Shown: positions 32,858 to 62,402, numbered from the stretch's first letter. The stretch: DNA of 64,000 nt from an uncultured Gemmatimonadota bacterium (GCA_902825965.1 CADEDA010000008.1:89264-153263); one strand, 5' to 3'. Notes: generated from the letters alone by a model not told the origin. Made by a program: numbers and translations.

Positions 32858-32875
32858 CTCACACAGTTCTCACAC
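32858..32875 (-). promoter_or_regulatory. Tandem heptamer site a, before the HK/RR operon
   Basis: On the plus strand the site reads CTCACAC-AGTT-CTCACAC, two perfect heptamers 11 bp apart. It ends 64 bp before the kinase ATG. If the neighbouring regulator binds it, the operon is autoregulated. Confidence 0.7.
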
Positions 32876-32939
32876 ACAAGCCTTCGTGCCCCAAGTGAGG
32901 TGGTTTAGCGGGTTTGACCGAACCGAGTATGTTTGTTGA

Positions 32940-34661
32940 ATGATCCGTGAGCGACTCAGCCAGCGAATCGTCGGCGGAATTGTGCAAGTGCTGGGAGCCC
33001 GTCCGAGCCGACTCGGCCCGGAGCGACTCACCGTGGTCGCGAGTGCACTCATCGTTCTCCTGACGATCACCGCCGGTGCGCTGGGGGTGAGCTATGCCAT
33101 GGATGCCCGAAAGGACCACGAACGCGCGCGCGCGAGTGCCTCCGCGCTTGCGACGGGGCTGATCCGCCGGCTGCTCTCCGAGTCCGTGCAGTCAGGCTGG
33201 AGGATCGTCCTTGAGTCCATGCTGCCCGTCCTGTCGGCCGACGTGCGCGGGCTCCCGGTGACGACGCGCGCGATGGACCGACGCGCTCGCGATTTCGCCG
33301 CGAGCTGTCGGTGCGCGACCATGACGCCGAGCGCGATCTTTGTCGCCGACCTTCACACCGGGGCGGTAGAGGAGTCGGGCGGGCCCGACCGCACACCACT
33401 TTCAGTGGGAGCCCGCAAGGCCATCCTGGCATTCGCTGACACCGCAACGCCCGAAGTCCGACGCATCAGTGCGCTCCTGATCGACGACGCGACGGGACCC
33501 GCCATGGCCTTCGTCCGCGTGGCAACGCTCAGCGAAGATCGCCGAATCGCTGGAGCGTTTGTCGTGCCGCTCTCGCAGTTGGGTCCCAAGGTGTTCGCGC
33601 CGGCCACGAGGACGGTGCTCGACGCGGTCTACGGTGACCTCCCACAGCGTGATTCGGTCTTCTCCCTCCTGATCACGCTGCGCGACTCGACCCCCGTCTT
33701 CCGGTCACCGTGGCAGGGCGACGGCATCGGCAGCACCCTTGAGTTCTGGCCGGACGACAGTCCACTCCTCCGGGCCACGCTGGAACTCAATCCTGCGCTG
33801 CTTCACCTCGTACTGCCGAGCGGCGTCCCTGACTTTCCTGCCGGAATCGCGTTCGTTGCCGCCCTGCTCCTGGTCTCGGCGGCAGCGGCGAGCCTGTTCG
33901 CGCTCCATCGGGCGCGTCATCTCATCGCCGCCCGCACGCTCTTCCTGAGCGGTGTCAGTCATGAGCTGCGCACACCGCTCACACAGATTCTTCTCTACAC
34001 CGAGCTGCTCGAGGACCCCAAGGCCGATGACGATCGGCGGACTCGAGCAATCGAGGTGATCGGCCGGGAGACCCGCCGACTCATTCACATGATCGAGAAC
34101 GTCCTGCTGTTCGCGCGAAGCGCGCGCCGCGACCTTCCGCTGAACCTCCGCGACCAGGAGTTGGCACCACTCGTGCGCGATATCATCGCGGACCTCGGTC
34201 CGTTGGTCGGTCGCGCCGGGGTGCGCGTCGCGCTTGCGCTCCATTCCGATCGCAAGGTCCGCATCGATCTCGGGGCGGTCCGACAGATCGTGGTCAACCT
34301 CCTCGACAACGCCATGAGATACGGACCAGCGGGACAACGTGTGCGGCTCTCGGTGCGCGACTGCGGCGAGCGCGTCGAGCTCGTCGTCGAGGACGAAGGC
34401 CCCGGCATCCCACGGGAGGTACGCGAGCGTCTGCGGGCGGCGGCACCCGGCGTGGCGACACCGGGGCATGGAACCGGAGCAGGACTCGGGCTCTCGTTGG
34501 TGAAGGTGCTCGCGCGCGCGATGGAGGCTTCACTCACCATCGACGACGGACAGGACGGAGGGGCGCGTGTCGCGATCAGCTTCCCTGCACTCGGTTCGCG
34601 GGAGCAAAGGCGTGACACGGACACGGTGCCGGCGGAGCTACCGGGGGAGGAGTTCGCGTGA
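32940..34661 (+). CDS. Membrane sensor histidine kinase
   Basis: The 573-residue protein has a first membrane helix at about 31-53, an extracytoplasmic domain of about 240 residues, a second helix at about 300-322 and a HisKA/HATPase core. The phospho-accepting His is in SGVSHELRTPLTQ (about residue 341). The ATPase has the N box NLLDNAMRYG, DEGPGIP and GTGAGLGLSLV. There is no HAMP domain of normal length. The sensor domain matches nothing I recognise. The TGA overlaps the GTG start of the response regulator. A tandem heptamer site lies 64 bp upstream. Confidence 0.93.
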   Translation: MIRERLSQRIVGGIVQVLGARPSRLGPERLTVVASALIVLLTITAGALGVSYAMDARKDHERARASASALATGLIRRLLSESVQSGWRIVLESMLPVLSADVRGLPVTTRAMDRRARDFAASCRCATMTPSAIFVADLHTGAVEESGGPDRTPLSVGARKAILAFADTATPEVRRISALLIDDATGPAMAFVRVATLSEDRRIAGAFVVPLSQLGPKVFAPATRTVLDAVYGDLPQRDSVFSLLITLRDSTPVFRSPWQGDGIGSTLEFWPDDSPLLRATLELNPALLHLVLPSGVPDFPAGIAFVAALLLVSAAAASLFALHRARHLIAARTLFLSGVSHELRTPLTQILLYTELLEDPKADDDRRTRAIEVIGRETRRLIHMIENVLLFARSARRDLPLNLRDQELAPLVRDIIADLGPLVGRAGVRVALALHSDRKVRIDLGAVRQIVVNLLDNAMRYGPAGQRVRLSVRDCGERVELVVEDEGPGIPREVRERLRAAAPGVATPGHGTGAGLGLSLVKVLARAMEASLTIDDGQDGGARVAISFPALGSREQRRDTDTVPAELPGEEFA

Positions 34662-35344
34662 TTCGGGTACTGATCGTAGAGGACACGTCGGACATCGCGC
34701 TGGGTGTGAGGGACTATCTCGTGCAGCAAGGCTGCGAGGTCCGCATCGCAGTCTCCGGCGAGGAGGCGCTTCCGGCCATCCGCGAGTGGATACCTGATGT
34801 CGTGCTCCTCGATCTCATGTTGCCGGGCATGAGTGGCTACGAGGTACTTCGACAGATCAGGTTGCAGGGTATCGAAGCACCGGTGTTGATCCTCTCGGCG
34901 AAGAGCGACGAAATGGCGAAGATTCGGGGCTTCCGTGTCGGGGCAGATGACTACGTGACCAAGCCCTTTAGCTTGCGCGAACTTGCCGCTCGGGTCCGCG
35001 CCCTCGGTCGACGCGTAGTGCAACCGAAACCTACCCCGGAGGTGCTTCGCTTCGGCGACATCGAGATTCGTCCGCTCGCGCGAAGAGTGCTCCGCGCCGG
35101 CGTCGAGATCGGCCTGCGACCGAAGGAGTACGACCTGCTGATGGCGTTGCTTGGGCATCCGAACGAGGTGGTGTCGCGGACGTTCCTTCTGGCGCAGGTG
35201 TGGTCGTACGAACCCGGCGTGGAGTCCCGCACCGTCGACTGGCACGTCGCGGAGCTTCGGAGGAAGCTCGCCGACGATGCGACGGCCCCGCGTCTCATCG
35301 AAACCGTTCGCAAGGCCGGGTATCGTTGGAACGGCGAGGCCTGA
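34658..35344 (+). CDS. OmpR/PhoB-family response regulator
   Basis: The 228-residue protein has a receiver (residues 1-115, acid pocket Glu 8/Asp 9, phospho-acceptor Asp 52 in LLDLML, Lys 102 in TKPF) and an OmpR-type winged helix (about 128-226). The recognition helix (about 189-204) reads SRTVDWHVAELRRKL. OmpR-family regulators bind direct repeats about 11 bp apart, which is the form of the heptamer sites in this window. The same helix, with four changes in 15 residues, occurs in the ChrB-like fusion at 45552-46337. It is coupled to the kinase by GTGA overlap. Confidence 0.95.
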   Translation: MIRVLIVEDTSDIALGVRDYLVQQGCEVRIAVSGEEALPAIREWIPDVVLLDLMLPGMSGYEVLRQIRLQGIEAPVLILSAKSDEMAKIRGFRVGADDYVTKPFSLRELAARVRALGRRVVQPKPTPEVLRFGDIEIRPLARRVLRAGVEIGLRPKEYDLLMALLGHPNEVVSRTFLLAQVWSYEPGVESRTVDWHVAELRRKLADDATAPRLIETVRKAGYRWNGEA

Positions 35345-35348
35345 CTCC

Positions 35349-36959
35349 GTGCGACGGGACTGCTGGACCGTGGCGCTACTCGCGCTCGGGGTGCTGGTGT
35401 CGGGGTCGACCGACGCCCAGGGGCTCAATCACATCTACGTCTTCGTGGACTCGGCGTCTTACGACCGCCTCGCGTCGTCGCGCCTGCTCCACGACAGCGT
35501 CGCCGTTGTTCGGGAGGGCGTCGTGTCGGACGCCATGTCCTCCTGGTCCGCGCTGTATTTGTTCGGGCGCAGCACTTACCTCGAGATCTTTCGCGCGGCA
35601 CGCGGGACCCCGCCGGCGGGAACCATGGCAATCGCGTTCGGGACGGACACGCCTGCCGAGTTTGCGGCGCTGACGAATCGCCTGCGCGCGGCGTTCGGCG
35701 CCGACCTTACAGAGCGTCGCCGCGAGAGAGTTGTGGATGGCGATACGCTCCCATGGTTTGAGCAACTGGAGCTCGTGCCCGAGGCGACGGCAAGCCCCTG
35801 GGTGCGGTGGTGGGTCATGCAGTATGACTCGACGCACAACGCCCGGCGCTGGCCGACGTTCCCGGAGATCGCTGGACGCAGCGACCGGCGGTCGTATCTC
35901 CTGCCGCTGCAGCAACCGCGCGCCATGGCGGACATCGCGCGCGTTCGTGTCGCGCTCCCGGCGGCGGAGCGTCGAGCACTGGTGCGTCAGCTGGAACGGT
36001 TGGGTCTCCGTACAACCTTCGCGGGTGATGCGACGCGGATTGAGGGCAACGCGATTGAGCTGGACGTCGTCGGCGTGAGCGAGGAGCAGACGCCCGGCTT
36101 CGCGGACGCCATCCTACGCACCGAGGGGTCGATCGCTCCAGGTGTCCTCGTCGAGGGAGCGTTTGAAGTCGAGGCACGGGAGCGCGACCTCCGCTTCGGA
36201 CGCTCCCTCCGCTGCGCGACTGCCGTGGAGACGGTGGAAACCGAGGATGGCCACCTCTCGATCTGTCGCCGGGGAAGCACCGCACCTGTCGTCGTCTTCG
36301 AGAGCGGACTCGGCGAGGGCATGATGGCTTGGCGCACCGTGACGGACAGCCTCGCTGCCACCGCAACGACGATCGCATATGCGCGGTCTAACTTGCGCCG
36401 GACCGCGAAGACGCCACCCGACTCCTTCGACGCGTCGCGGTCGGCAGACTTGCTGGCGACGGCGCTGGATCGCCTCGGGGTCCGCGGCCGCATCATCCTC
36501 GTCGGACACTCGCTCGGGGGCGCCTACGCGCAGGTCTTTGCGGCACGTTTCCCTGCTCGGGTGCGCGCGCTCGTTCTGGTGGATCCGACGCCGTCCGGCT
36601 TCTTCGCCGAACAGCGCAAGATCGTCGGGACGGAACGATATCTTGCGCAACAGGCACGTATTGAGGCCGGCCTCTCCTCTGGAGCGTTGGCTGAGTGGCG
36701 GGCGATCGACACGAGCCTCCGCTTGGCCGCACGACTTCGCGCCATACCCGGTGTCCGGGTCGTGATTCTGTCAGCGGGTGCGGTGCAGAATCCCGACCCC
36801 GTGCAGGGACCGCGCTTGAAGCGACTTTGGCTCGAGCTGCACGCGGGACTCGCGCGACGGCTCGGCGGCCGTCATGAGGTAGTCAGTGGCGCGGGTCATC
36901 GAATCCAGGATGAGCGGCCGGACCGCGTCCTCGCGGCCATCCGCGAGGTGATGCCGTAG
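35349..36959 (+). CDS. Exported alpha/beta hydrolase with N-terminal DUF5829-like domain
   Basis: The GTG at 35349, four bases after the regulator stop, gives 536 residues with a signal sequence ending TDAQ. Residues 25-290 resemble DUF5829 (LNHIYVFVDSASYDRLASSRLL, LYLFGRSTYLEIF). The remainder is an alpha/beta hydrolase with VVVFESGLGEG, the nucleophile elbow GHSLGG, an acid in LVDPTPSGFF and a His in SGAGHRIQDERP. It is the third gene of the kinase/regulator operon and so a likely member of the regulated set. The fusion of these two domains is not one I know. Confidence 0.78.
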   Translation: MRRDCWTVALLALGVLVSGSTDAQGLNHIYVFVDSASYDRLASSRLLHDSVAVVREGVVSDAMSSWSALYLFGRSTYLEIFRAARGTPPAGTMAIAFGTDTPAEFAALTNRLRAAFGADLTERRRERVVDGDTLPWFEQLELVPEATASPWVRWWVMQYDSTHNARRWPTFPEIAGRSDRRSYLLPLQQPRAMADIARVRVALPAAERRALVRQLERLGLRTTFAGDATRIEGNAIELDVVGVSEEQTPGFADAILRTEGSIAPGVLVEGAFEVEARERDLRFGRSLRCATAVETVETEDGHLSICRRGSTAPVVVFESGLGEGMMAWRTVTDSLAATATTIAYARSNLRRTAKTPPDSFDASRSADLLATALDRLGVRGRIILVGHSLGGAYAQVFAARFPARVRALVLVDPTPSGFFAEQRKIVGTERYLAQQARIEAGLSSGALAEWRAIDTSLRLAARLRAIPGVRVVILSAGAVQNPDPVQGPRLKRLWLELHAGLARRLGGRHEVVSGAGHRIQDERPDRVLAAIREVMP

Positions 36960-37060
36960 CCCAGCCAGACAAGTCTTTCAGGACGCAAACGCATACGGAC
37001 CGGAGACCGTCAGCGCGCGTGGGTATGATGGGACGAGACCCTACTCCGGAGTGAGCAGCC

Positions 37061-38227
37061 GTGTTCCAGCAACTTTCGAAGCGCGCCCACGTGACCCTCG
37101 CCCTCGTGCTCGGTGCTGTTCTGGCTTGTGCCGGTGGTGGCACCGAACCCCCGACGGGGAACGCCCGTGAGACGATCGAGGTCAGCCTCTCAGCGAATGC
37201 GCTGGTGCCGGGCCAGCCGGCGACGGCGACGGCAGTGGTGCGCGACGATGCGGGCGCGGTCATCCCGGATGCCGCAGTCACATGGGGCTCAACGAACGGC
37301 ATGGCCGCCAGCGTCGCCGCCGATGGGGGAGTGACGGCACTGGCTCCGGGTGGGTCGACCATTGTCGCGACTCGCCCGGGAGGAGCGAGCGGGAGTGCGG
37401 CAGTCTCCGTGGCCGAAGGGGCTTGGGCGACTCCTGCGGGAGGCACCTTTGCCGGCTTCGGCGGACTGATCGAGCTCCAGATCCCGCCCGCAGCCGTCTC
37501 CGCCCCTCGAGCCCTGCATTTCAACAGAGCGTCAACAGCGCTGCCAGACCCGACCGGAGTCGAGCGGGCGCAGTTCACCGTCGGCACTTCGGCAGACGTG
37601 TTCCTGGTACCGGCGACCCTTCGACTCCGGTTCACCGCAGACTCCGCACCGTATGGCCTTCCGCGATCGTCGCTCGGGATCCGAGTCCTGCAGTCGGACA
37701 CGTGGTCGAACGTCCCGGGCAGCGCGATCGCTTCGGGAGTCGACCGCGCCGAGGCACCGATATCCGCCGGTGGCCACTACGGGGTCGGTCGGCTCATCCC
37801 GACGATGCCATGCACTGACGCCGCATATCGTGCGTTCGACTTCTGGCTGGGAGACTGGGACGTGAGTAGCGGCGGCACTCTGGTGGGGCGCAATCGGGTC
37901 ACGTTGGAGCCCGGTGGCTGCGCGGTCTTCGAGGACTATACGTCTGGCCCGGGCGGTGGGCGCAGCATCTCGTTCTACGAGCCAACGTCGGATGCCTGGT
38001 ACCAGACGTACCTTGACTACTCGGGTGCGCGACTTGAGATCAGTGGACCGGTGGGCACTCCGGGATCACTCAGGATGCGCACGGTGGGCTTGCCTCCACT
38101 CTATGACCGCTGGGAATGGACCTTGCTGCCATCGGGCGAGGTTACGCAGGTCGCCTCGCGGACGCTCAACAATGGCGTGAGCTTCGGAGCGCCGTACTGG
38201 AACGGACTCTACCGTCGGCGCCCGTAA
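37061..38227 (+). CDS. Lipoprotein with Big2-like Ig domain and C-terminal DUF1579-like domain
   Basis: The GTG start gives 388 residues with a lipobox-like LACAG. A bacterial Ig-like domain (Big2) follows: SLSANALVPGQPATATAVVRDDAGAVIPDAAVTW and VTALAPGGSTIVA. The middle part resembles a ZU5/Ig-like beta domain with FGGLIELQIPPAAV. The C-terminal 130 residues are DUF1579-like (AAYRAFDFWLGDWDV, GGCAVFEDYTSGPGGGRSISFYEP, WYQTYLDYSG). No heptamer site is evident in its short upstream region. The function is unknown, and the Ig region suggests surface display. Confidence 0.75.
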   Translation: MFQQLSKRAHVTLALVLGAVLACAGGGTEPPTGNARETIEVSLSANALVPGQPATATAVVRDDAGAVIPDAAVTWGSTNGMAASVAADGGVTALAPGGSTIVATRPGGASGSAAVSVAEGAWATPAGGTFAGFGGLIELQIPPAAVSAPRALHFNRASTALPDPTGVERAQFTVGTSADVFLVPATLRLRFTADSAPYGLPRSSLGIRVLQSDTWSNVPGSAIASGVDRAEAPISAGGHYGVGRLIPTMPCTDAAYRAFDFWLGDWDVSSGGTLVGRNRVTLEPGGCAVFEDYTSGPGGGRSISFYEPTSDAWYQTYLDYSGARLEISGPVGTPGSLRMRTVGLPPLYDRWEWTLLPSGEVTQVASRTLNNGVSFGAPYWNGLYRRRP

Positions 38228-39624: not shown

Positions 39625-39782
39625 TGTGGTGCGGTGAAGGACGTCCAGAGCGTGAGCGTTGCCGCGCGGCATGGACCCCCGAAGCCGTTGCGGCGGCATT
39701 GAGAGTACCTTCGACCCACCACAGGTCCCATGCCGCGACGGCGACGCTCTGACGCGAACTATGCTCGCTCGCGCATCGCAAG

Positions 39783-41132
39783 TCAGCGCTTCGCGGGTGT
39801 GAGTCCCGTGTGAGCTCCGCGCGCGGCGGCGCGAGCACTACGAATCCATGCGAGTGCGGCCTCGAACGCCGGGTCGCGGTTCGCGAAATAGTCGCTCGCC
39901 AAGACGGGCACCACGATGTCCGGTGCAATCCAGTCGCGCGTGTCGCCGATGTCGGCGTCGCGATGCCACACCGACGCTACGGCCACCTTCAGGCGGCTAT
40001 ACGGCAGCTGCGTCTCCGAGACGTCGCCGATGTGGTTGGGACGCGAGCCGGTCGGCTCGCCCACGAACGTCGCGTGGGTGCGTTGTTCGATCCGTGTCGC
40101 GAAGTTCTGTCCCGCCGAGAACGTGCCACGCCCCGTGATCACGACGATCCGATGCGCGCTCGCCGCGTCCTCGAACGCCTCGAACGCCTCGATCAGCGGG
40201 GGAAGCAGAAATCCGTTCCCGCCGTTGTTGCCGCGCACCTCCACGAGAACGCTCGTGAAGCGACCTGAGAGCAGGAGGCCGCGCACCCGGGCTGCGAAGG
40301 CAGCGAGCGTCTCGTGCGCTTCGTCACGGACGGCCTGAAACGACACGTAGAGCACTGAATCCGCCGGGAGAGAGTCGAGCCAGAAGGCGGTCTCACGGCG
40401 GCGCAGATACCACGGGGTCGCCACGCCCTCGCCTCCTGGCGGATACAGCCGCTGCATCGCGGCGCGCGCGTGGGACCCCACACGGACGGTCGATGTGGTG
40501 CCGCTGGCGAGCACGAGTCCCAAGGTCGTGGCGGAGTCGGTTGCACTGCCCCCGGCAGCGCGCACCACCGCTGGATACTGCATCAACTGCGCGCCGAACC
40601 ATCGCGCGCTCATCTCGTTGTCTCGCGGAACCAGTGGCGCCATGCGCGTGAGAAACTCGTCGATCGCAAGTCCGCCGATCGACGTCACGCGAGCACCGAG
40701 CAGGCCGCCGAGCCCGGGCCGCACGCTCGCGATGTGGACGCCGTCGTCGAACCAGTAGAAGTCCACCATCAGCGCATTGAAGCGCACGCTCCCTACATCA
40801 TCGGGAACGATCGACGTGTGCGCGTCCCCGAGTGCCACCAGCGCGCGCTGGATGCCCGCTACTACCGCCTCGTCGGGGAGCGCCGGGACCTCGGCAGACA
40901 GCGCACTGATCGCCGCCTCGAACCCGCGGAAGTCTGGGTCGCTCGGCGCTGGCGGATGCACCCTGAGGACCGCCGTTCGCAGTGCCTCAATGTCCCCACG
41001 CCAGCCGTTCACGCGGTCGTCCGGGTCAACCGCACCGTCACGAGAACAACCGAGCACTCCAACGATTGTGCAGAGCACGAGCGTCCGGGCGCGTATGCCC
41101 TGCGTGCGCAGCGTGGGGGATTGGGTAGGCAT
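39783..41132 (-). CDS. S41 family (C-terminal processing/tricorn-type) peptidase lipoprotein
   Basis: The ATG at 41132 gives 449 residues with a lipobox (GVLGC). A small N-terminal helical region, a PDZ-like segment (FNALMVDFYWFDDGVHIASVRPGLGG, GARVTSIGGLAIDEFL) and an S41 core follow. LVEVRGNNGGNGFLLPPL matches the conserved DxRxNxGG strand, and the catalytic Ser lies in GRGTFSAGQNFA. SRPNHIGD is the usual downstream motif. The enzyme probably cleaves peptides or misfolded proteins in the periplasm. A heptamer site lies 65 bp upstream. The last codons also contain site b. Confidence 0.85.
   Translation of the reverse strand: MPTQSPTLRTQGIRARTLVLCTIVGVLGCSRDGAVDPDDRVNGWRGDIEALRTAVLRVHPPAPSDPDFRGFEAAISALSAEVPALPDEAVVAGIQRALVALGDAHTSIVPDDVGSVRFNALMVDFYWFDDGVHIASVRPGLGGLLGARVTSIGGLAIDEFLTRMAPLVPRDNEMSARWFGAQLMQYPAVVRAAGGSATDSATTLGLVLASGTTSTVRVGSHARAAMQRLYPPGGEGVATPWYLRRRETAFWLDSLPADSVLYVSFQAVRDEAHETLAAFAARVRGLLLSGRFTSVLVEVRGNNGGNGFLLPPLIEAFEAFEDAASAHRIVVITGRGTFSAGQNFATRIEQRTHATFVGEPTGSRPNHIGDVSETQLPYSRLKVAVASVWHRDADIGDTRDWIAPDIVVPVLASDYFANRDPAFEAALAWIRSARAAARGAHTGLTPAKR
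39797..39814 (+). promoter_or_regulatory. Tandem heptamer site b, before the S9-like hydrolase gene
   Basis: The plus strand reads GTGTGAG-TCCC-GTGTGAG, a perfect pair 11 bp apart. It lies within the last codons of the S41 peptidase gene and 172 bp upstream of the ATG at 39624, farther than the other sites. Confidence 0.55.
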
Positions 41133-41197: not shown

Positions 41198-41215
41198 GTT
41201 TGATCTGTGTGTGAG
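41198..41215 (+). promoter_or_regulatory. Tandem heptamer site c, before the S41 peptidase gene
   Basis: The plus strand reads GTTTGAT-CTGT-GTGTGAG. The second heptamer is perfect and the first has two changes. It lies 65 bp from the S41 ATG at 41132 and 127 bp from the divergent DUF1579-like gene at 41343. Confidence 0.6.
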
Positions 41216-41228: not shown

Positions 41229-41249
41229 GTATGCACACCGTTTGCATAC
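41229..41249. promoter_or_regulatory. Perfect inverted repeat in the divergent S41/DUF1579 promoter region
   Basis: GTATGCA and TGCATAC form perfect 7-bp arms separated by 7 bp. The site is between two divergent starts and next to heptamer site c. The dyad form suggests an operator for a dimeric repressor rather than an OmpR-type site. Confidence 0.4.
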
Positions 41250-41971: not shown

Positions 41972-41989
41972 GTGTGCGTACCGTGTGAG
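41972..41989 (+). promoter_or_regulatory. Tandem heptamer site e, before the MBL-fold lipoprotein gene
   Basis: The plus strand reads GTGTGCG-TACC-GTGTGAG, with one change in the first heptamer. It ends 67 bp before the ATG at 42057. Confidence 0.65.
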
Positions 41990-44792: not shown

Positions 44793-45551
44793 GTAGCCCG
44801 TACGCACGGCCCCCGGACCGCGATGCACGCGCGATGCGGCGCCTCGAGGCTCACACACCTCTCACACCAATGCGCCACACGGCTCCCCGCACCCACCTGT
44901 GAAGGGACCGGGTTCCGATCCGGAGAGCGTGCGGCCAGTGTCAGCGCGCCGGGCCGTCGCCCGGTCGCGTGCCTGTGGCACGTCGCCGCTCCTCCAAGAC
45001 CGAAGAGTCCGCACGGAAGCTGCCGCCCCTTCGGCGAGACGGTCGTCGCGTCGCCCGCAGCGGCTGTTGCGGTCGCTGCTCCACCTGGAGGCTTCGTGGT
45101 TCGGCTCGGGCGGGACACGAGGCCCGTGGAGCGTTTCACTCGCGGCGGCGATCACATCACCTCCGTGGTGGCGGGACGTGTGCCGACCGCGCGTTTCGCT
45201 CGCTACCACGATTGGGCGATACTAGTGGGCGAGTGACGCGGTTCTCGATGCGCGCGACCGCCGGCGATGGACTCCCGCTAAGCGACCACCCGGACGTGTC
45301 CCTCACTTGACTTCGCTTCCGAGTCGGACACGCGCCTAATCGATCGCCACTATGACGACCCGTTGGTGCAGCGGAGCGCAACAACGGCGGCCGCATTCCC
45401 ACGCCTGGCCATTCCGTGCGCCTCGGAAGCGCGCGCTGGCGTCGCCGAATGACGGCCGAGCACCTTGTCATTGAGTGGGCCGCTCGGCAGTGGTCGGTCT
45501 CGGTGGGGCGGGCGCGGGAAGCCGCTCTTCGCTGACGTGGAGCTTCTCACG
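44793..45551. other. 760-bp gap without a recognisable gene
   Basis: The left 75 bp contain heptamer site f. The remainder has only low-quality Arg/Ser/Pro-rich frames on both strands and no hairpin or repeat that I can support. Confidence 0.4.
44850..44867 (-). promoter_or_regulatory. Tandem heptamer site f, before the M20 amidohydrolase gene
   Basis: The minus (coding) strand reads GTGTGAG-AGGT-GTGTGAG, two perfect heptamers. It ends 57 bp before the ATG at 44792. Confidence 0.7.
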
Positions 45552-46337
45552 TCATCCCGACCGATCATCCTCGCGCCAGCGATAGCCCGCTCCTCTGATC
45601 GTCTCGAGAGCCTCCCCGGTTGGTCCCAGCTGCTTGCGCAGGGCCGCGATGTGCCAGTCTACGGTTCGCGACGTGACACCGGACTGATAGTCCCACACGT
45701 GCTGCAGCAAGAAGCCCCGGCTGAGTATGCGTCCGCTCCTCGCGACCAGTGCCACCAGCAGTGAGAACTCCTTCGGCTTGAGAGGCACGACCTGCCCTCG
45801 CACCAGCGCGCGGCGCGCGGATACGTGCAGTTCGACATCGTGCGAACACAGTCGGTCCCACGACGGTTCACCGGGGTCCGTCACGCGAAGGGGATCCCAC
45901 CCGTGCACCTCGTTTCTTGCGTGCTGCAACCACTCGTAGAGGGCGTCGTAGACGACGAATCCGGTCGTGAGCATTCGCTGATCGTCATCCATGCACAGCC
46001 GCGAGAGTCCCAGGGAGATCGCTAACAGTCCCGCTGCCTGGGGCGCGAGCTCCAGGCGCGCGGTGTCGGCACTCCGCACGATGTCAGCCAGGTCCCGGAG
46101 CGCGGGTGTCTGAAGTCGGTACCGGTGGAGGAACGCATCGAAGGAGCAGCGGTCGTCGTGGTGCCCGAGCTCCGCACCCTCCACATCGAACGGCGTCGCG
46201 CCCAGCACCCGCGCGCGCTCCCACACCTCATCTGCGGGCACAAAGAAGAACCTGGGTGCGCGGTCGATGAACCGTGCGATGAGCCACGGACAGGCGACGC
46301 GATCGATCTTTGGACGCTCCCGAGTGATCCATTTCAC
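45552..46337 (-). CDS. ChrB-like domain fused to an OmpR-type winged-helix DNA-binding domain
   Basis: The GTG at 46337 gives 261 residues. Residues 2-137 match the C-terminal domain of chromate-resistance protein ChrB (WITRERPKIDRVACPWLIARFID, FDVEGAELGHHDDRCSFDAFL, GFVVYDALYEWL). Residues about 165-256 are an OmpR/PhoB-type winged helix whose recognition helix SRTVDWHIAALRKQL is 11/15 identical to that of the response regulator at 34658. There is no receiver domain. The protein may therefore sense a metal oxyanion or redox ligand directly and bind the same heptamer sites. It lies 37 bp after the aminotransferase gene in the same operon. No chrA is visible. Confidence 0.82.
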   Translation of the reverse strand: MKWITRERPKIDRVACPWLIARFIDRAPRFFFVPADEVWERARVLGATPFDVEGAELGHHDDRCSFDAFLHRYRLQTPALRDLADIVRSADTARLELAPQAAGLLAISLGLSRLCMDDDQRMLTTGFVVYDALYEWLQHARNEVHGWDPLRVTDPGEPSWDRLCSHDVELHVSARRALVRGQVVPLKPKEFSLLVALVARSGRILSRGFLLQHVWDYQSGVTSRTVDWHIAALRKQLGPTGEALETIRGAGYRWREDDRSG

Positions 46338-46374: not shown

Positions 46375-47679
46375 TCACGAGTGGCGCACGGCGCTCGCGA
46401 GCGCGTCCCCGAAGCGGTCGATGTCGGCTTCGTTCGTGTACAAGTAGCACGATGCCCGCGCAGCCCTCGTTGTACCGAACCGCTCGAGGAGCGGCAGTGC
46501 CGCGAGGTCGCCACCCCGGATGGCCACACCAGCCTCATCGAGCGCCGCTACCACCTGTGCCGGAGTGCGCCCTTGCACCACAAAGGCGAACACACCGACT
46601 CTCGCGCGTGCATCAGGCGCCCCAATCAAACGGACGGTCGGAAGTGCCGCCAAGCGTTCGAGCATTCGGACGTTGATCCGCTCCTGATGCTGGCGGATCG
46701 CCGCGAAACCGATGCTGCGCAGGTAGCGCAGCGCAGCGGCGAGACCGATCGCTCCCGAGACGTTTGGCGTCCCGGCACCGAACTTGAGCGCCCCAGCGGA
46801 GAGTTCGGCGTGTTCCAACCCCACGTCGTGCGCCATGTTCGAGCCGTGATGCCACGCCGGCATGGACTCGAGCAACTCGCGCCTTCCCCACAAGACGCCA
46901 GCCCCCATCGGACCGAGGAGCTTGTGGCTGGAGAGCGCAAGGAAGTCGCACCCGATCGTCCGCACCTCGGTCGCCAGATGCGGCGCCGACTGCGCCGCAT
47001 CGACGACCACGATCCGATTGGGCCCGCGAGCGATTGAACAGATCTCTGCGATGGGGTTGATCAACCCGAGAACGTTGCTCACGTGGCTTACGGCGACGAT
47101 GCGTGTGCGCGGCCCGATCTTGGCTGCGAGATCTGCGAGGTCGGGGTAGCCGGCGTCCGTCAGGCCGAAGTACACCATGCGGGCCCCGGTACGCGCTGCC
47201 AACGCCCGCCACGGGAGCATGTTCGAGGAGTGTTCACCGACGCCGACGAGGATCTCGTCTCCTGATCGTACGTTTGCCGTTCCCCAGGTCGCGGCCACCA
47301 GATTCAGGCCCTCGGTGGTGCCACGGGTGAACACGACCTCCAGTGGATCCGTGGCGCCGACAAACTCTGCGGCGGTGCGTCGGGCCTCATCGAACGAGGC
47401 GGACGCGCGCCGCGCGAGCGTATGGAGCGCGGCGCCTGGATTCGCGTTGTCTGTCGCGTCGAACTGCCCCAAGGCGTCAATCACAACCTGGGGTCGCAGC
47501 GACGTCGCAGCCGTGTCGAGATACGTGAGGGGATGTCCGTTCACACGCTGCCGTAAGGCGGGGAACTGTGAACGCCAGTCGCTTCCGGCCTGGTGAACGG
47601 CCTCATTTCCGACGCGAGTCGCCAACTGCGATGCCGCCACCGCTCCCGCGACCTGCCCGATGAACTCTCGCCGAAACAT
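46375..47679 (-). CDS. Class V aminotransferase (SufS-like) with Tat-type leader and no catalytic Cys
   Basis: The 434-residue protein starts with FRREFIGQVAGAVAAS, a Tat-like leader. It has the PLP site of cysteine desulfurases (VVVDAAQSAPH, SSHKLLGP with Lys 253, the His in GEHSSNML). In SufS the catalytic loop reads RTGHHCAQP. Here the aligned segment is RGGDLAALP (388-396), so the Cys is an Ala and the enzyme cannot be an ordinary desulfurase. It may be an epimerase or lyase such as isopenicillin-N-epimerase-like members. An AGGAGG ribosome site precedes the ATG. Heptamer site g lies 70 bp upstream. Confidence 0.85.
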   Translation of the reverse strand: MFRREFIGQVAGAVAASQLATRVGNEAVHQAGSDWRSQFPALRQRVNGHPLTYLDTAATSLRPQVVIDALGQFDATDNANPGAALHTLARRASASFDEARRTAAEFVGATDPLEVVFTRGTTEGLNLVAATWGTANVRSGDEILVGVGEHSSNMLPWRALAARTGARMVYFGLTDAGYPDLADLAAKIGPRTRIVAVSHVSNVLGLINPIAEICSIARGPNRIVVVDAAQSAPHLATEVRTIGCDFLALSSHKLLGPMGAGVLWGRRELLESMPAWHHGSNMAHDVGLEHAELSAGALKFGAGTPNVSGAIGLAAALRYLRSIGFAAIRQHQERINVRMLERLAALPTVRLIGAPDARARVGVFAFVVQGRTPAQVVAALDEAGVAIRGGDLAALPLLERFGTTRAARASCYLYTNEADIDRFGDALASAVRHS

Positions 47680-47749: not shown

Positions 47750-47767
47750 CCCACACGTTCGCCACAC
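47750..47767 (-). promoter_or_regulatory. Tandem heptamer site g, before the aminotransferase/ChrB-fusion operon
   Basis: The minus (coding) strand reads GTGTGGC-GAAC-GTGTGGG, a variant with GTGTGG cores at the same 11-bp spacing. It ends 70 bp before the ATG at 47679. Confidence 0.5.
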
Positions 47768-48931: not shown

Positions 48932-48949
48932 GTGTGAGTCTTGTGTGAT
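48932..48949 (+). promoter_or_regulatory. Tandem heptamer site h, before the HExxH protein gene
   Basis: The plus strand reads GTGTGAG-TCTT-GTGTGAT, with one change. It lies 77 bp from the ATG at 48854. Confidence 0.62.
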
Positions 48950-49132: not shown

Positions 49133-49150
49133 GTGTGAGTTCCGTTTGAG
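49133..49150 (+). promoter_or_regulatory. Tandem heptamer site i, before the repeat lipoprotein gene
   Basis: The plus strand reads GTGTGAG-TTCC-GTTTGAG. It ends 91 bp before the ATG near 49242, the same distance as site l. Confidence 0.68.
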
Positions 49151-50843: not shown

Positions 50844-50897
50844 ACTACGTGGAGGAGGTGCGAACGAAACGCTCGTGAGCGACTTGCTCGCATCGCT

Positions 50898-50915
50898 CTA
50901 ACGCAATGCAAACAC
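50898..50915 (-). promoter_or_regulatory. Weak tandem heptamer-like site j, before the serine hydrolase gene
   Basis: The plus strand reads CTAACGC-AATG-CAAACAC. Each heptamer matches CTCACAC at five of seven positions with the correct spacing. It lies 54 bp upstream of the ATG at 50843. It is only a candidate because of the mismatches. Confidence 0.3.
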
Positions 50916-51942: not shown

Positions 51943-51960
51943 CTCACATCGTTCTCACAC
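51943..51960 (-). promoter_or_regulatory. Tandem heptamer site k, between divergent genes
   Basis: The plus strand reads CTCACAT-CGTT-CTCACAC. It lies 108 bp from the ATG at 51834 and 130 bp from the ATG at 52091, so it could serve both genes. Confidence 0.62.
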
Positions 51961-53225: not shown

Positions 53226-53243
53226 GTGTGAGAACCGTGTGAC
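53226..53243 (+). promoter_or_regulatory. Tandem heptamer site l, before the DUF1259 gene
   Basis: The plus strand reads GTGTGAG-AACC-GTGTGAC, with one change. It ends 91 bp before the ATG at 53335. Confidence 0.68.
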
Positions 53244-53334: not shown

Positions 53335-54267
53335 ATGACCGCGATTGTCTCGCGCATCCTGCTCGCCGCTGCGGTTGTGGCGACAGTCGCCTGCGGTGCC
53401 CCGCGCCCCGATCTCGCGCCGCTCGACACGGCGGCGCTCGAACGCATCCTGGGAGTACCCGGAGTTACAGAAGCAGGCGAGTACAAGGTGACCGTCCCCC
53501 AGAACGACCTCGACGTTCGCGTCGATGGCTTCTCCATTGTGCCGCCAATGGGACTCGGTTCGTGGGCGGCGTTCACGCCCGGCCCGAAAGGCGCGGTGCT
53601 GATGGGTGATCTCGTACTGCGGGATGCCGAGGTGGCGTCCGTGCAGTCGGTGCTCGTTGGGCACGGCCTCACGGTCACCGGCCTGCACAACCACTTCGCG
53701 CGCGAGTCGCCGAGCGTCCTGTTCATGCACATCGGCGGCGAGGGTCCCGCAGACTCGCTGGCGGTCGGCGTGCGCGCAGTCCTCAATCGCATCGCTACGG
53801 TCCGGGGCGCTGATCCGGCCGCCGCAGTCGCGCGCGCCGTGAGCAGCGCGCTCGACACAGCGTCCATCGCCCGAGGCCTGGGCGCAGCTGGGCAGTCAGC
53901 ACGCGGCGTCTACCGCGTCACGTTGGGACGGCCCGAGGTCGCGCTCGAGGCGCACGGAGCGAACGTGTCGTCATTTCTCGGCTTCAACAGTTGGGCCGCG
54001 TGGCAAGGCACTGCAGCGCGCGCCGCGGTCGCTGGCGATTTCGCGCTGCTTGCCCACGAGGTAGCACCGGTGGTGGAGACGCTCGTCACGCGCGGTATCG
54101 AAGTAGTCGCGCTGCACAATCACCTAACGCACGAGCAACCGACCGTCTACTTCCTCCACTACTGGGGCGTCGGGAGTCAGGCCGATCTCCTCGCCGCGCT
54201 CAAGGCGGCTCTCGCCCACCTCGGGCCCGTGCGTGACTGTGAGAGGAGGAGCCAGACGCCGTGCTGA
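53335..54267 (+). CDS. Lipoprotein with two DUF1259 (LppY/LpqO-type) domains
   Basis: The ATG at 53335 gives 310 residues with a lipobox (ATVAC). Two related domains follow, each with a central FxxWxA-type motif and a histidine pair. The first has PPMGLGSWAAFTPG, GHGLTVTGLHNHFARESPSVLFMHIGG. The second has FNSWAAWQGT, GIEVVALHNHLTHEQPTVYFLHYWG. DUF1259 has no assigned activity. The conserved HNH and LHYWG motifs suggest metal or ligand binding. The upstream ATG at 53262 is less likely because heptamer site l would then be only 19 bp away. Confidence 0.8.
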   Translation: MTAIVSRILLAAAVVATVACGAPRPDLAPLDTAALERILGVPGVTEAGEYKVTVPQNDLDVRVDGFSIVPPMGLGSWAAFTPGPKGAVLMGDLVLRDAEVASVQSVLVGHGLTVTGLHNHFARESPSVLFMHIGGEGPADSLAVGVRAVLNRIATVRGADPAAAVARAVSSALDTASIARGLGAAGQSARGVYRVTLGRPEVALEAHGANVSSFLGFNSWAAWQGTAARAAVAGDFALLAHEVAPVVETLVTRGIEVVALHNHLTHEQPTVYFLHYWGVGSQADLLAALKAALAHLGPVRDCERRSQTPC

Positions 54268-57218: not shown

Positions 57219-58622
57219 TCACACTCGGATCGCGTTGGGTGCCCGCGCATTCAGTGCGGCGAGGACCCCGCGGGCCCGAACTGCGTCGCCGCGTCGGATC
57301 GCATCAACGATCAGCATCATGACGACCGCGTCCGAGGCGACCTGCGGATCGGCCTGTCGTGCCTTCAACGCGCGGTCCGCGAACTCCGTGACCGACGCGG
57401 ACCAGAAGAGGTGTCGCAGCTGCCGCGCGGACGTCGGCACGGCAGGAATGGCGTCTGGCCGGCTGCTCCCCACGGGCACAGTCAGGACCGCTGTGACGGC
57501 CTCGGCGGAACGGTCGATGGAGGCCTCAGCGCCCGACCCGCGACCGTGGAACTCGTCAAGCCAGCGCAGCGTGAAGGCGTTGAGCGCATGGTACCCACGC
57601 TCCGCCGCGTGCCTTGCGGTCGAGTCATCATCGCTGAAGCCGGCGCGCAGCCGGCGCTGGACGATCCCCTGGGAGATGTAGTCGTTGTGCCGCATTCCGC
57701 GCATCGTGACGAGCGTTCGGGGACTCTCGCTCAACGAGTCGGCGAGCTCGAAGAGCGCCTCCGGCCCAGCGACGAATACGAGCGGACGCGTCACCTGGCG
57801 TCGCTCCGCCACTGCGCGATCCGTGAAATAGGACCACGAGTGGTCCGTGAGGCCCGCGTAGTCCTGCGTCGTGTCGAAAGCCAGCACGCCATCGATGGGT
57901 GCGCTTGGGTCAGTGGCCATCAGCAGCATTGCCTGCGCGCCGGCGCTATGCCCGATCACGACCGCGCGCCCGGTGCTTCTCCCGGTCAGCCGCTCGACCT
58001 CCTGCAAGAGACGGCGAATGTCGCGCCGCCGTGACTCATCGCTGGCGTCGGTCGAGAACCGATCGTTCGCCTCGGCCGGATAGGCGCTGCCGATGACCGC
58101 ATAGCCTCGACTCGCGAGCAACTCGCAGAGCACGACGTTGTCGTCGAGCGACGACCCCGCACCTTGCGTGTACACAACGACCGGGAGGTCGCCAGGTTGC
58201 ATCGGTGCGTCACGCACCGCGCCGCTGAGAGACGCAAAGTGCGCATCGACCACGCGCCGCCGCTCGGGCAGGGTCGAGTCGGGCGCCGTGCCCGCGACTT
58301 CCTTCCACGCGACACTCCACTGGTATGCGAGCAGCGCATCCACATAGCGAGGCATAGCCGACGCGCCGCTCGCGGACCTGAGGCCATCGAGATACCCACG
58401 GACAGGCATGCGTGCGCCGCCCGCCGCCACAGTCGGATACCAGAGGTTCAAGAGCACCGGACGATACCGTAGCTCGTACGTCTCGCCGTTCGGCAGGCGA
58501 CGCGTGGAGTCGATGACCCAGCGCTGGAGGAAGCCCACAGGCTGATTCGGCGCGGCGGCTCGGGACGGACCGGTGGGGGCCGCGGTGGCCTGCAACACGA
58601 CGGCGAGCGCGAGAGCGAACAT
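57219..58622 (-). CDS. Exported alpha/beta hydrolase, possibly truncated at its C-terminus
   Basis: The ATG at 58622 gives 467 residues with a signal sequence (ALALAVVLQATA). The domain is PAF-AH/lipase-like: LRYRPVLLNLWYPTVAAG, LPVVVYTQGAGSSLDDNVVLCELLASRGYAVIGSAYP, nucleophile elbow GHSAGAQAML, FVAGPEALFEL and MRGMRHNDYIS with the His. About 100 residues of a helical tail follow. The start is chosen because heptamer site m then lies 85 bp upstream. The longer frame back to 58841 covers the site itself. The frame continues past the stop (57120-57218). Confidence 0.78.
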   Translation of the reverse strand: MFALALAVVLQATAAPTGPSRAAAPNQPVGFLQRWVIDSTRRLPNGETYELRYRPVLLNLWYPTVAAGGARMPVRGYLDGLRSASGASAMPRYVDALLAYQWSVAWKEVAGTAPDSTLPERRRVVDAHFASLSGAVRDAPMQPGDLPVVVYTQGAGSSLDDNVVLCELLASRGYAVIGSAYPAEANDRFSTDASDESRRRDIRRLLQEVERLTGRSTGRAVVIGHSAGAQAMLLMATDPSAPIDGVLAFDTTQDYAGLTDHSWSYFTDRAVAERRQVTRPLVFVAGPEALFELADSLSESPRTLVTMRGMRHNDYISQGIVQRRLRAGFSDDDSTARHAAERGYHALNAFTLRWLDEFHGRGSGAEASIDRSAEAVTAVLTVPVGSSRPDAIPAVPTSARQLRHLFWSASVTEFADRALKARQADPQVASDAVVMMLIVDAIRRGDAVRARGVLAALNARAPNAIRV

Positions 58623-58707: not shown

Positions 58708-58725
58708 CTCACACACGGCTCATAC
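58708..58725 (-). promoter_or_regulatory. Tandem heptamer site m, before the hydrolase gene at 57219
   Basis: The minus (coding) strand reads GTATGAG-CCGT-GTGTGAG, with one change. It ends 85 bp before the ATG at 58622. Confidence 0.65.
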
Positions 58726-58761: not shown

Positions 58762-60301
58762 TTCAATCGGGGTGGCTGGAGTCTAGGCTCTGGTCCGCTG
58801 CCTCGGGAGCAGCGGGGAGCGGGCTTCGGCGCGACCGCCACAGCGCCGGTGCGCTTCGCGGGCTGTTTGGCCTGCGGGCCGGACGGGTGACCCGGGGTCG
58901 GCGGGAGCCGGTGGGGACCGTGGGGTCGCTGCGGTGGGACCGCCGCGCACGCCGAACTGCCCCGCGCGGTCGTGGGGCGTCGGGGGGCGCGTGCTCAGGG
59001 GGGAGTCGGGGCGTCGGCGGACGGGCGTGAGGCGCGTGACGTGCCCCGGCTCGGGCGGGCCCGCGTCGATGGGGGGCTCCGAGCGCCGGCGTGGGCCGCG
59101 GTTGCCGCGCGGGTGCGGAGGTGGGTGAGGATTTGGTCTATCACCGCCGTCTGGGTGATGAAGGCGACGATGCGCATCGCGCCGTGGCAGGACGGACACG
59201 CCAGCGGGTCGACCTCGAAGATTTGTTGGAGGAGGGCCGCCCACCGGCGGCTGGCCTCGGTCGGCGCGAGTCGGGGCGCGGGGACGATGGCGGGTGGCCC
59301 GTCCGCGGCGGCGGGCGCCGCCTTGTCCCGCATGCCACGGGGGCGGTTGGCATACCAGCCATGGTATCGGGTCGTGACATGCCCCTTGTCCGGAATGTGC
59401 ACGAGTACCCGGGCCAGGAACTCGAGCGGGTCGGCGGTCTCGGTCCCCGCCGTCGGCCCCTCGGACTTGTCGGAGCGATACGTCACCGCCTGCGCGGTCC
59501 GGTCATACGTCAGCCGCTCCAGCGCGACGGGATTCCGGGCGCAGTACCGGGCGAGCCGGGTCGCGAACGCGCGATCGTCCTCGGGCACCCTCACAGCGGT
59601 GTGCGCGTGGAACCCCGAGTGCGGCCACGTGAGCATGCCGGCGGCTTGGTCCTCGTCGAACAACTCCAGGCGCACGAAAAGCCGGAGCACCGCGCGGCGG
59701 AACGCCTCGGTCAACCGGGCAGTGTCATGCACGGGCCATGCGACGAACGTCCCGTCGGGCCGAAAGCCGCCGTCGGTGATGAGCAGGTGCAGGTGCGGAT
59801 GCCAGTTGGCGCGCGAGCCGTGCGTCTGCAAACACGCGGCGATGCCGACCGCGAGCTCGCGCTCCCCCGTCAGCGCACGAATGGCGGCCGTGACGGTGCG
59901 GGCGGCGATGCGGGCGATGTCGCCGAGCAGGCGTCGGCGGTACAGACAGTACGCGCGGAGCCGCTTGGGGATGGTGAGCACCACCTGGCGGTGCGGCACC
60001 GGCGCGAGGAGTGTCGTGTCCAGCCACTGCGTCCAGATTGCGACGCGCTTCGCGTGGCAACTCGGACAGAAGTAGCGGCACTTGCACGAGAACGCGAGCA
60101 GGTATTCGTGCGTGCACGCGTCGCAGCGGATGCGGGCGAAGCCGTGCTCGAGCACGCCGCAGGCGAGGAACTTGTCGGCCACGTCGCCAACCACCGGACG
60201 CCACGGGCCATACTCGCGCGCGAAGCGCTCGTCGTAGACCGTCTGCAGCCGGTGCAGATGGTCCGTCGCGCGCGCGCGGCACAACCCGCAGCTGGAATGA
60301 G
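58762..60301 (-). mobile_element. IS91-family insertion element
   Basis: The element holds one transposase gene. The left end is placed at TTCAATCGGGGTGG (58762-58775) because the same string starts the partial copy at 62403. The right end is placed at about 60301, where the neighbouring gene fragment begins. IS91 elements have no inverted repeats and make no target duplications, and none are seen. Both ends are inferred. Confidence 0.7.
58995..60284 (-). CDS. IS91-family (Y2-type) transposase
   Basis: With the TTG at 60284 the product is 429 residues. The N-terminal zinc-binding domain shows FLACGVLEHGFARIRCDAC and FSCKCRYFCPSCHAKRVA. The catalytic rolling-circle core follows with HPHLHLLITDGGF (the HUH-like His region), RLARYCARNP, LTYD and the family motif DPLEFLARVLVHIPDKGHVTTRYHGWYANR. 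The C-terminus has CPSCHGAMRIVAFI and a long Arg/Pro/Ala-rich tail. The exact start is uncertain because no ATG precedes the conserved region. The gene appears intact. Confidence 0.88.
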   Translation of the reverse strand: MCRARATDHLHRLQTVYDERFAREYGPWRPVVGDVADKFLACGVLEHGFARIRCDACTHEYLLAFSCKCRYFCPSCHAKRVAIWTQWLDTTLLAPVPHRQVVLTIPKRLRAYCLYRRRLLGDIARIAARTVTAAIRALTGERELAVGIAACLQTHGSRANWHPHLHLLITDGGFRPDGTFVAWPVHDTARLTEAFRRAVLRLFVRLELFDEDQAAGMLTWPHSGFHAHTAVRVPEDDRAFATRLARYCARNPVALERLTYDRTAQAVTYRSDKSEGPTAGTETADPLEFLARVLVHIPDKGHVTTRYHGWYANRPRGMRDKAAPAAADGPPAIVPAPRLAPTEASRRWAALLQQIFEVDPLACPSCHGAMRIVAFITQTAVIDQILTHLRTRAATAAHAGARSPPSTRARPSRGTSRASRPSADAPTPP

Positions 60302-60647
60302 CAGCCTCGGCGGGAGCACTCGCGACGAGCCGAGTCCTCAGGCGCTGCGGCGGATGGACGACGCGTATCCCGACGCCCTGTTTCCTAACGAGCTTCCGCC
60401 GTTCGACGCAGATGCAGTGCGGCGCTCCCCCGGCGGCGATATCTGGGCGACGCTGTCCGCTCCGGCAGGCGCGACCGGTTTCGCGGTAGACGTCCTCCGC
60501 GAGGATGGGACTCGCCGCGGCGTGATCCGATTGCCGCTCGGCCGCCGGTTGGTGGCCTTGACCTCGGACGGCGTGTTCCTCGCGCGTGTGGACGAGGACG
60601 GGCTGGAGTGGCTGGAGCGGTATGCGTATCCGGCGGGGCTGCGGTGA
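60302..60647 (+). pseudogene. 3' fragment of a beta-propeller gene, paralogue of the gene at 1145-2317
   Basis: The last about 110 codons of a gene related to the beta-propeller protein at 1145-2317. Corresponding segments are ALRRMDDAYPDALFPNELPPF versus AIRRNREAYPDEIFPSHKPPF, and RVDEDGLEWLERYAYP versus RVDDDGLQWLERYPMP. About 280 upstream codons, including the signal peptide, are missing. The fragment abuts the IS element, which probably replaced the 5' part. I see no 5' part on the far side of the element. Confidence 0.8.
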
Positions 60648-60657
60648 TGCGCGACCG

Positions 60658-62091
60658 CTACCGCTCGCTCGAACCAACGCGAACATCGACCACGCGCTCT
60701 GCGATGGGCACTCCTTCAGCGCTGGTCATCGCCGACAACAGCACAAACTGGTAGTCTCGCCCGCGTTCGAGATGGGCTCGGACCTTAAGCTCCGTGGCGG
60801 AGGAATCCCACGCGTAAGACGTGAGGCGTGGCACTGCGGTCATCCCTGCGGGCCCGACGCCCAAGGCGATACCGCGCGTCATTGGGCGGTCGAACTTCAG
60901 GCGTATTTCACCAGGACCCGCCGAATCCGCCGAGTTCACGAGCACTGCTTCAACGCCAAGAAACCGAGGCCGACGAGCCTCGAACGCCCGGCTGAGCTCG
61001 GGAACACGCGGGCCGACCTCGCTGAAGAGCGAGAGGACCTCCGGCACGAATCGCGAGAATGCGGGAAACGAGGTGCGACTCTCGGAGTACAGCCGCAGGC
61101 GTTGCACGAGCTCAGGCAGCCAAACGAACCCGAGCGCCTGCTGGGCAAAGAGCTCGCGATCGGCGGCTGACTGTCCCGAATTGCCAGCCAAGTAAAGCAC
61201 GACCGCGGCGCGAACGAGCGATTCGTTGAGCATCGTGAGTTCGCTTTGGACCGCTTGCGCGGTCAGCTGCGAGCGTGTGGCTTCGAACGCGGCAGAGGCC
61301 GCAGCCGTAGCCGCGGAAGGTTGCGCGTCGAGGTGCGGATTGACGAAGGAGTGAACGAACTCGTGCACGATGACCGGGAGGTCGTCGGTCGAGAATCGAG
61401 GCACGCCGGAAGAGTCGGGCCGCGCGATCGCAAGAATCGCGAAGTACTCTTCGCGCCCGTCTGCACCTACAACCCGCGGACCGGTGTTGCGTGTGCCGTG
61501 ACAGAGCCCCGGAACAACGGTGAACTGCCCCGGGTTCTCGCCGAAGAAGTCGACCAACCATTGCACTTTCACGTGGCGTTCGACGAAATCGCTCATTCTT
61601 TGTCGCACGACCTCGCCGAGGGCGGACTGCTCTGCCCAGAAGGCCGCGAACCGCGAATCACGCACGAAGGTGTCGAGCTCGCGTACGAAGCCATCGACGT
61701 CCGCCGCCCCCCAACGTCGCCGCACCTGCGAGTCGGGACTGGCGAGACGCACGCGTCCGCGGGCGAGCTCGGCGCGATCCAGACCAAGTGCAAGCACATC
61801 AATTGCATCGTAGCCAATGCCGTGCTCGCTGCGGGCGGCCTGCGCCGTCCGAATGGCACTGTGCTCGAGGTACGCGCCAAACCAGCGATTCTGGGCCTCG
61901 AGGTACGCTGGGTAGCCACAGAACTGTTGCTCCGGATTTCCCGCGAGGCGGAACACCAGATTCACCAGCTCTATGCGCTGATCGACCACGACTCGCGGTG
62001 ACTGCGCGCGAGCACTACTGGGCGTCGCGAGCGTCAAGCAGAGGGCAAGTCCGAGCGCTAGGGATCTCCTAGCCACTGTTTTCGTCATCAC
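60658..62091 (-). CDS. Exported DUF4932 metallopeptidase-like protein with C-terminal Ig-like domain
   Basis: The 477-residue protein has a signal sequence (SLALGLALCLTLATPSSARAQ). The DUF4932 domain is recognised from DDLPVIVHEFVHSFVNPHLD with the HExxH zinc motif and a following LNESLVRAAVVLYLAG that may supply the third ligand. The C-terminal 100 residues are an SbsA/Ig-like beta domain (GEIRLKFDRPMTRGIALGVGP). The substrate is unknown. Heptamer site n lies 112 bp upstream. It converges with the gene fragment at 60302. Confidence 0.82.
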   Translation of the reverse strand: MMTKTVARRSLALGLALCLTLATPSSARAQSPRVVVDQRIELVNLVFRLAGNPEQQFCGYPAYLEAQNRWFGAYLEHSAIRTAQAARSEHGIGYDAIDVLALGLDRAELARGRVRLASPDSQVRRRWGAADVDGFVRELDTFVRDSRFAAFWAEQSALGEVVRQRMSDFVERHVKVQWLVDFFGENPGQFTVVPGLCHGTRNTGPRVVGADGREEYFAILAIARPDSSGVPRFSTDDLPVIVHEFVHSFVNPHLDAQPSAATAAASAAFEATRSQLTAQAVQSELTMLNESLVRAAVVLYLAGNSGQSAADRELFAQQALGFVWLPELVQRLRLYSESRTSFPAFSRFVPEVLSLFSEVGPRVPELSRAFEARRPRFLGVEAVLVNSADSAGPGEIRLKFDRPMTRGIALGVGPAGMTAVPRLTSYAWDSSATELKVRAHLERGRDYQFVLLSAMTSAEGVPIAERVVDVRVGSSER

Positions 62092-62402
62092 TGTGAAATG
62101 TCAGGAGTTCGACGTCCTGCGAAGCGCGTAGAGACCTCGAGTACGGGAACAAGCCGCGCACCTGTTTGGACGCACCTAGCGCGCACGACGTTGGCGGAGT
62201 CGTGTGTGCGTTCCGTTTGACGAGGCTACCGCCTACCGTCGCTGCAAGAGATTGTCGTGGCGGAAGTCGCCCCAACAGCCCGCAGCGCGAGCGCATACGC
62301 CGAGTCCAACGCCGCCGGCTCCGAAACTTCCACATTCGGAACGACCCCAACGCCATTCCACCCCGCATTTGTTCGCGGATGCGTCACGCGCAGGATAGGA
62401 AT
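62092..62402. other. Intergenic region with heptamer site n
   Basis: This gap of about 310 bp holds heptamer site n at its centre. Otherwise only low-quality frames are present. Confidence 0.45.
62204..62221 (+). promoter_or_regulatory. Tandem heptamer site n, before the DUF4932 gene
   Basis: The plus strand reads GTGTGCG-TTCC-GTTTGAC, with the TTCC spacer of site i. It lies 112 bp from the ATG at 62091. Confidence 0.5.

Follow-up and report, generated by a model that had tools for sequence, protein, structure and literature searches.

The window analysed here is a 64,000-nucleotide stretch (C8:89264-153263) of the 4.07-Mb genome of an uncultured Gemmatimonadota bacterium (G000, 73 contigs). 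From 32,858 onwards it holds an island of genes that includes a histidine kinase-response regulator pair, a class V aminotransferase followed by a second protein with an OmpR-type winged helix, and a series of mostly exported hydrolases and lipoproteins, with copies of the tandem heptamer GTGTGAG-N4-GTGTGAG in front of them (Table 1). Start codons were refined using signal peptides and gene context. An IS91-type transposase (Y2_Tnp, Zn_Tnp_IS91; 58995-60686) lies between the hydrolase at 57219 and the DUF4932 gene. The initial annotation had described an aminotransferase/ChrB fusion in the island; these are really two adjacent genes, the aminotransferase stopping at 46375 and a separate ChrB protein starting at about 46337. 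No known RNA families were found at 32-64 kb of the window. Just outside the island lies an esterase with C-terminal ankyrin repeats (31195-32829), which has no operator.

Table 1. Genes and candidate operators of the island (window coordinates; operators are predictions)
Feature	Position	Strand	Remarks
Predicted operator GTGTGAGAACTGTGTGAG	32858..32875	-	Perfect copy; 64 bp before HK-RR operon
Sensor histidine kinase (HK)	32940..34661	+	Almost orphan sensor in the periplasm, with a conserved CxC; model dCache-like
OmpR-family response regulator (RR), PF00072+PF00486	34658..35344	+	Recognition helix SRTVDWHVAELRRKL at 35228-35259
Exported DUF5829 + alpha/beta hydrolase	35345..36959	+	After RR in operon
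Tentative operator GTCTCCGGTCCGTATGCG	36990..37007	-	Before Big_2 lipoprotein; one mismatch to relaxed consensus
Big_2-type lipoprotein	37061..38227	+	
Predicted operator GTGTGAGTCCCGTGTGAG	39797..39814	+	At most one mismatch; before S33-type hydrolase (38209-39699, -)
Predicted operator GTTTGATCTGTGTGTGAG	41198..41215	+	Two or more mismatches; before S41-like lipoprotein (39783-41132, -)
Tentative near-palindromic second site, GTATGCA-N4-GTTTGCA / GTATGCA-N4-GTGTGCA	41229..41249		S41 promoter
Predicted operator GTGTGCGTACCGTGTGAG	41972..41989	+	At most one mismatch; before MBL-fold lipoprotein (42057-43523, +)
Predicted operator GTGTGAGAGGTGTGTGAG	44850..44867	-	At most one mismatch; before M20 amidohydrolase (43548-44792, -)
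ChrB_C sensor domain + OmpR-type wHTH fusion	45552..46337	-	Recognition helix SRTVDWHIAALRKQL at 45637-45668
Aminotransferase class V, Tat-type, SufS-like (cysteine desulfurase family)	46375..47679	-	First gene of the fusion's operon
Predicted operator GTGTGGCGAACGTGTGGG	47750..47767	-	Two or more mismatches; before aminotransferase-fusion operon; conserved in G211, G448
Predicted operator GTGTGAGTCTTGTGTGAT	48932..48949	+	At most one mismatch; before exported HExxH protein (47898-48854, -)
Predicted operator GTGTGAGTTCCGTTTGAG	49133..49150	+	At most one mismatch; before PPDTL-repeat lipoprotein (49242-49598, +)
Tentative operator GTTTGCATTGCGTTAGAG	50896..50913	-	Before beta-lactamase-family protein (49698-50834, -); resembles G215 sites
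Predicted operator GTGTGAGAACGATGTGAG	51943..51960	-	At most one mismatch; before LolA-like exported protein (50986-51834, -)
Predicted operator GTGTGAGAACCGTGTGAC	53226..53243	+	At most one mismatch; before DUF1259 lipoprotein (~53335-54267, +)
Predicted operator GTATGAGCCGTGTGTGAG	58708..58725	-	At most one mismatch; before exported hydrolase-like protein (57219-58622, -)
Weaker predicted operator GTGTGCGTTCCGTTTGAC	62204..62221	+	Two or more mismatches; before exported DUF4932 protein (60658-62091, -)

With at most one mismatch allowed, the genome contains nine copies of the tandem heptamer, all of them in the window between 32858 and 58725 (C8:122121-147988). The reversed pattern, used as a control, gave a single match in the whole genome at the same stringency, and a chance model for the 29.7-kb cluster expects 0.02 copies (p 4e-22). 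GTGTGAG/CTCACAC is by a wide margin the top tandem heptamer of the region, and at exactly two mismatches the genome outside the window is at control level. A search of the window added three copies with at least two mismatches (41198, 47750 and 62204), giving twelve in all, probably the twelve clear copies counted previously. We also scored sites with a fixed weight matrix pooled from 18 heptamers, iterative refinement having been abandoned because of drift towards low-complexity matches. Eleven sites in the cluster reach a score of at least 15.7, compared with none in the first 32.7 kb of the window and none in 201 kb sampled elsewhere in the genome; the site at 47750 scores 8.9, yet is conserved in two other genera. 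The first half of the window does contain one two-mismatch copy, at 25135, with a score of 14.7. Nothing comparable in strength lies outside the cluster, either in the genome scan or in the background sample, and the observation of a local, clustered motif is confirmed as right and far beyond chance.

A relaxed consensus, GTNTGMR-N4-GTNTGMR, whose form was chosen after seeing sites in relatives, gives 16 sites in the cluster at up to one mismatch versus 1.7 expected. It adds three places, 36990, 50896 and 41229/41232, which are tentative because of this choice. A weak two-mismatch copy at 57207 was not counted because it coincides with a gene's 3' end. Further upstream on the island's contig, about 34 kb before it, there are three consecutive 11-bp units of GTGTGCG/GTTTGCG (L068 18226-18254). 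No comparable cluster was found in samples of 394 genomes of the class or 178 of the family, and nothing like a local tandem-heptamer regulon was seen near the genome's paralogs that lack the tryptophan helix described below (C12, C28) or near homologs of the kinase sensor in G015, G392, G270, G391 and G025.

Each of the eleven strong sites is followed by a start codon some 57-112 bp further on (55-115 bp for nearly all copies in the initial annotation). Upstream zones of this kind cover about 6% of the region; by a strict count nine of the eleven sites fall inside them (p 3e-10); the other two miss because the start of the DUF1259 gene was mis-set (it is really at about 53335) and by a single base, respectively. 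In all, about 14 transcription units have a site upstream. Nearly all targets are exported, with lipoprotein, Sec or Tat-like N-termini in their translations, the M20 amidohydrolase being an exception. One of the strong operators precedes a short lipoprotein (49242-49598) that consists mostly of PPDTL repeats. Two similar 7-mers arranged as a direct repeat 11 bp apart are the form of an OmpR/PhoB-family operator. Orientation relative to the gene is nevertheless mixed among the twelve sites (47750 included), GTGTGAG reading towards the gene at seven and CTCACAC at five, unlike the single fixed orientation of PhoB-type activation geometry. No significant fixed distance between site and sigma-70-like promoter emerged across all 12 units.

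Two candidate readers are encoded within the island. The first is a receiver-domain regulator with a Trans_reg_C winged helix, as belongs to this operator family, adjoining a HisKA/HATPase kinase with which it forms a two-component system. The sensor domain of the kinase (32940-33917) has almost no relatives, and a CxC that never varies is common to three remote homologs; a structure model (pLDDT 69, weak fold scores) suggests that it is probably of dCache type. In G015 (L100 18044-19270) a homolog of this sensor has lost the kinase part. A BTAD domain following Trans_reg_C, as in Streptomyces SARP regulators, was matched by none of the island proteins. The second candidate starts with the ChrB_C domain of the chromate regulator ChrB (PF09828, E 5.6e-47), lacks the N-terminal DNA-binding half of ChrB and ends with PF00486; its structure model (pLDDT 52.5) was too poor for use. 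Our literature search found no described precedent for such a fusion of ChrB_C to a winged helix. Four are present in the family sample (G000, G211, G435 and G448), each in a different genus, the other three being 63-66% identical to that of the window. In G000, G211 and G448 the gene immediately before the fusion is the same SufS-like aminotransferase, while the G435 contig ends inside the aminotransferase. None of the ChrB_C-only homologs has a neighbouring aminotransferase, and they are therefore unusable as a promoter control.

Response regulator and fusion have the same recognition helix, SRTVDWH, and match at five of six base-contact positions. They are two of the eight OmpR-type winged helices above cut-off in the genome, and both place a tryptophan where, on our reading of the alignment, M. 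tuberculosis PhoP has the base-contacting Ser216 (PMC4832192). Among the remaining six, T, M, L or V occupies that position in five, and C3 differs in the helix itself. The other residues of the helix occur in regulators without the tryptophan too, so tryptophan alone need not set specificity. Searches with back-translated RTVDWH gave six matches in the 394 class genomes, two of them in the island, and in the 178 family genomes only five proteins, namely the island regulator and the four fusions. In a winged-helix tree the four fusions cluster together (100/99), and this group is sister to the island regulator with moderate support (82/85), and the DNA-binding domains of the two proteins are probably sisters. 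The initial annotation was right about the kind of protein likely to read the sites, an OmpR/PhoB-type regulator, and missed the second regulator with the same helix, as well as the fact that the sites face both ways relative to their genes.

Conservation in other genera extends to the operator of the aminotransferase-fusion operon, but not to the entire cluster. G211 and G448 have GTGTGATGTACGTGTGAA and GTGTGACGAGTGTGTGGC, respectively, before the aminotransferase, in the same place and orientation as the site at 47750. A three-way alignment with the window gives ATTGTGTG..G....GTGTG as the main conserved block before this operon, followed 37-38 bp downstream by TANGTT in all three genera. 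Near the G211 fusion operon, a strong GTGTCATGAGTGTGTGAG lies over the start codon of an outer-membrane-type protein (L124 10004-10021) and could be chance. An exact site in G448 (C384) is part of a GC-rich inverted repeat, with ftsK on one side and the recA region on the other, and looks like chance. G215 and G244, which belong to another family, have kinase-regulator pairs with the tryptophan helix. In G244, GTATGCGAACGGTATGCA precedes this operon, between the kinase and a divergent class V aminotransferase, and 16 of 18 bases of this intergenic site recur in the near-palindromic double site at 41229-41249. G215 has TTGTGCATTTCGTTTGAG 44 bp upstream of the regulator, and its ortholog (39%) of the island's Big_2 lipoprotein is preceded by GTTTGCGTTGGGTGAGAG. 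These relaxed sites were recognised after inspection, on contigs of 7.5 and 10 kb, and only suggest that tryptophan-helix systems of that family have variant sites before their own operons. In a further genome, G400, an OmpR-type regulator with a threonine helix (52% to the island regulator) is followed 60 bp downstream by GTGTGAGTTCCGTGCGAG (L143 1084-1101).

From the sites, their locality and position, the shared helix, the related domains and the cross-genus footprint, all read in the sequences, we infer that the tandem heptamers are operators of OmpR/PhoB type. We consider it likely that together they mark out a self-contained regulon, some 14 promoters confined to the island, in which response regulator and fusion read the same operator; the presence within the island of two regulators whose DNA-reading helices match suggests such a circuit. 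Each heptamer would take one monomer of a head-to-tail dimer, the two lying one helical turn apart. The response regulator would be driven by the adjacent membrane histidine kinase, with the fusion acting as a one-component reader, and dimers of the phosphorylated regulator and of the fusion on the same boxes would switch on the exported hydrolases and lipoproteins as well as their own operons. Both the kinase-regulator and the aminotransferase-fusion operon carry the operator and so are probably autoregulated. Activation from upstream sites appears most likely from the position of the boxes, with repression as the alternative. Such a circuit would join an outside signal, sensed by the kinase through its probable dCache-type domain, to an inside signal sensed by ChrB_C. 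We give an even chance to a more specific scenario, in which a cytoplasmic ChrB_C sensor gained a copy of the DNA-binding domain of the regulator, so that the roughly 14 private operators would be shared by a membrane kinase and a one-component sensor of metal, oxyanion or redox state, the fusion and its cysteine-desulfurase-like partner also standing alone in other genera.

The two-component regulator could instead control the island by itself, the fusion sharing its ancestry and binding elsewhere or only at its own promoter. The location of the kinase-regulator operon at one island edge, with a perfect operator, would fit this, as would the presence in G215 and G244 of tryptophan-helix regulators and sites with no fusion found alongside. 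We regard it as unlikely, however, given the near-identity of the base-contact positions and given G211, where the RTVDWH search found no tryptophan-helix response regulator and the fusion operon still keeps its operator. Co-occurrence of fusion and operator in three genera would suit the converse arrangement, with the fusion as sole reader and the kinase-regulator pair merely one target, but the regulator has the same helix and the systems of G215 and G244 have related sites nearby without a fusion, which makes this less probable still. It is highly improbable that the repeats are not operators but were left behind by a mobile or cassette-type recombination element: the cluster is island-like in its GC content (66.8% versus about 69-71% elsewhere) and its IS91-type transposase, but the sites share no similarity beyond 18 bp, are mixed in orientation, keep a constant promoter-proximal position and are conserved at one operon across genera. 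It is equally improbable that the sites belong to an unrelated regulator from another part of the genome, since, although other families use direct repeats too, the strong sites are confined to the island that encodes matching regulators.

The reading as a local regulon is supported by the genome-wide motif scan and the cross-genus conservation of one operator, and is enlarged by the fusion as a second likely reader of the box. The island itself looks acquired or assembled in this lineage, because of its GC content, the transposase, the absence of the cluster from the class and family samples and the DUF4932 gene, for which no good match was found in 16 other genomes of the genus. Here raw sequence is enough to read a whole regulon, operators and two candidate readers together in a single island. 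Since hardly any other proteins have tryptophan at that base-contact position of the helix, the connection of helix and operator can be tested directly. In the fusion, a stress sensor would be coupled in a new manner to the operators of a two-component system.

The Pho box of E. coli is built of CTGTCAT heptamers. The island shares with the PhoB system an OmpR/PhoB-type domain, 7-mers 11 bp apart and an RTVD.H helix, but PhoB has valine where the island proteins have tryptophan, the island heptamer is GTGTGAG, site orientation is mixed, unlike in classical PhoB activation, and no phosphate-uptake genes were found in the island. In the PhoP box of M. tuberculosis, TCACAGC-N4-TCACAGC (PMC4832192), two 7-bp direct repeats are likewise separated by strictly 4 bp, and the TCACA core is shared with the island box, read as CTCACAC-N4-CTCACAC; the island regulator is also similar to PhoP over the whole chain (3r0j, E 6.8e-44). 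The last bases of the heptamer differ, however, as do the contact residues (N, V, E, S, Y, Y in PhoP; R, T, D, W, H, E in the island), and the PhoP regulon is global whereas that of the island is local. For Ochrobactrum tritici ChrB, binding to an inverted repeat has been proposed for the N-terminal half and chromate sensing for ChrB_C, which carries residues needed for the chromate response (PMC3817168); the island fusion has ChrB_C in common with it, lacks the N-terminal half and has an OmpR-type winged helix after ChrB_C. AgrR of Cupriavidus metallidurans is also an OmpR-family regulator, autoregulated and with several operators near metal-resistance genes, but its box is mainly an inverted repeat (6-4-6) rather than a direct one (PMC7380067). 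Direct-repeat control of the OmpR/PhoB type is known; new here is the ChrB_C-winged helix fusion of a sensor to a DNA-binding domain.
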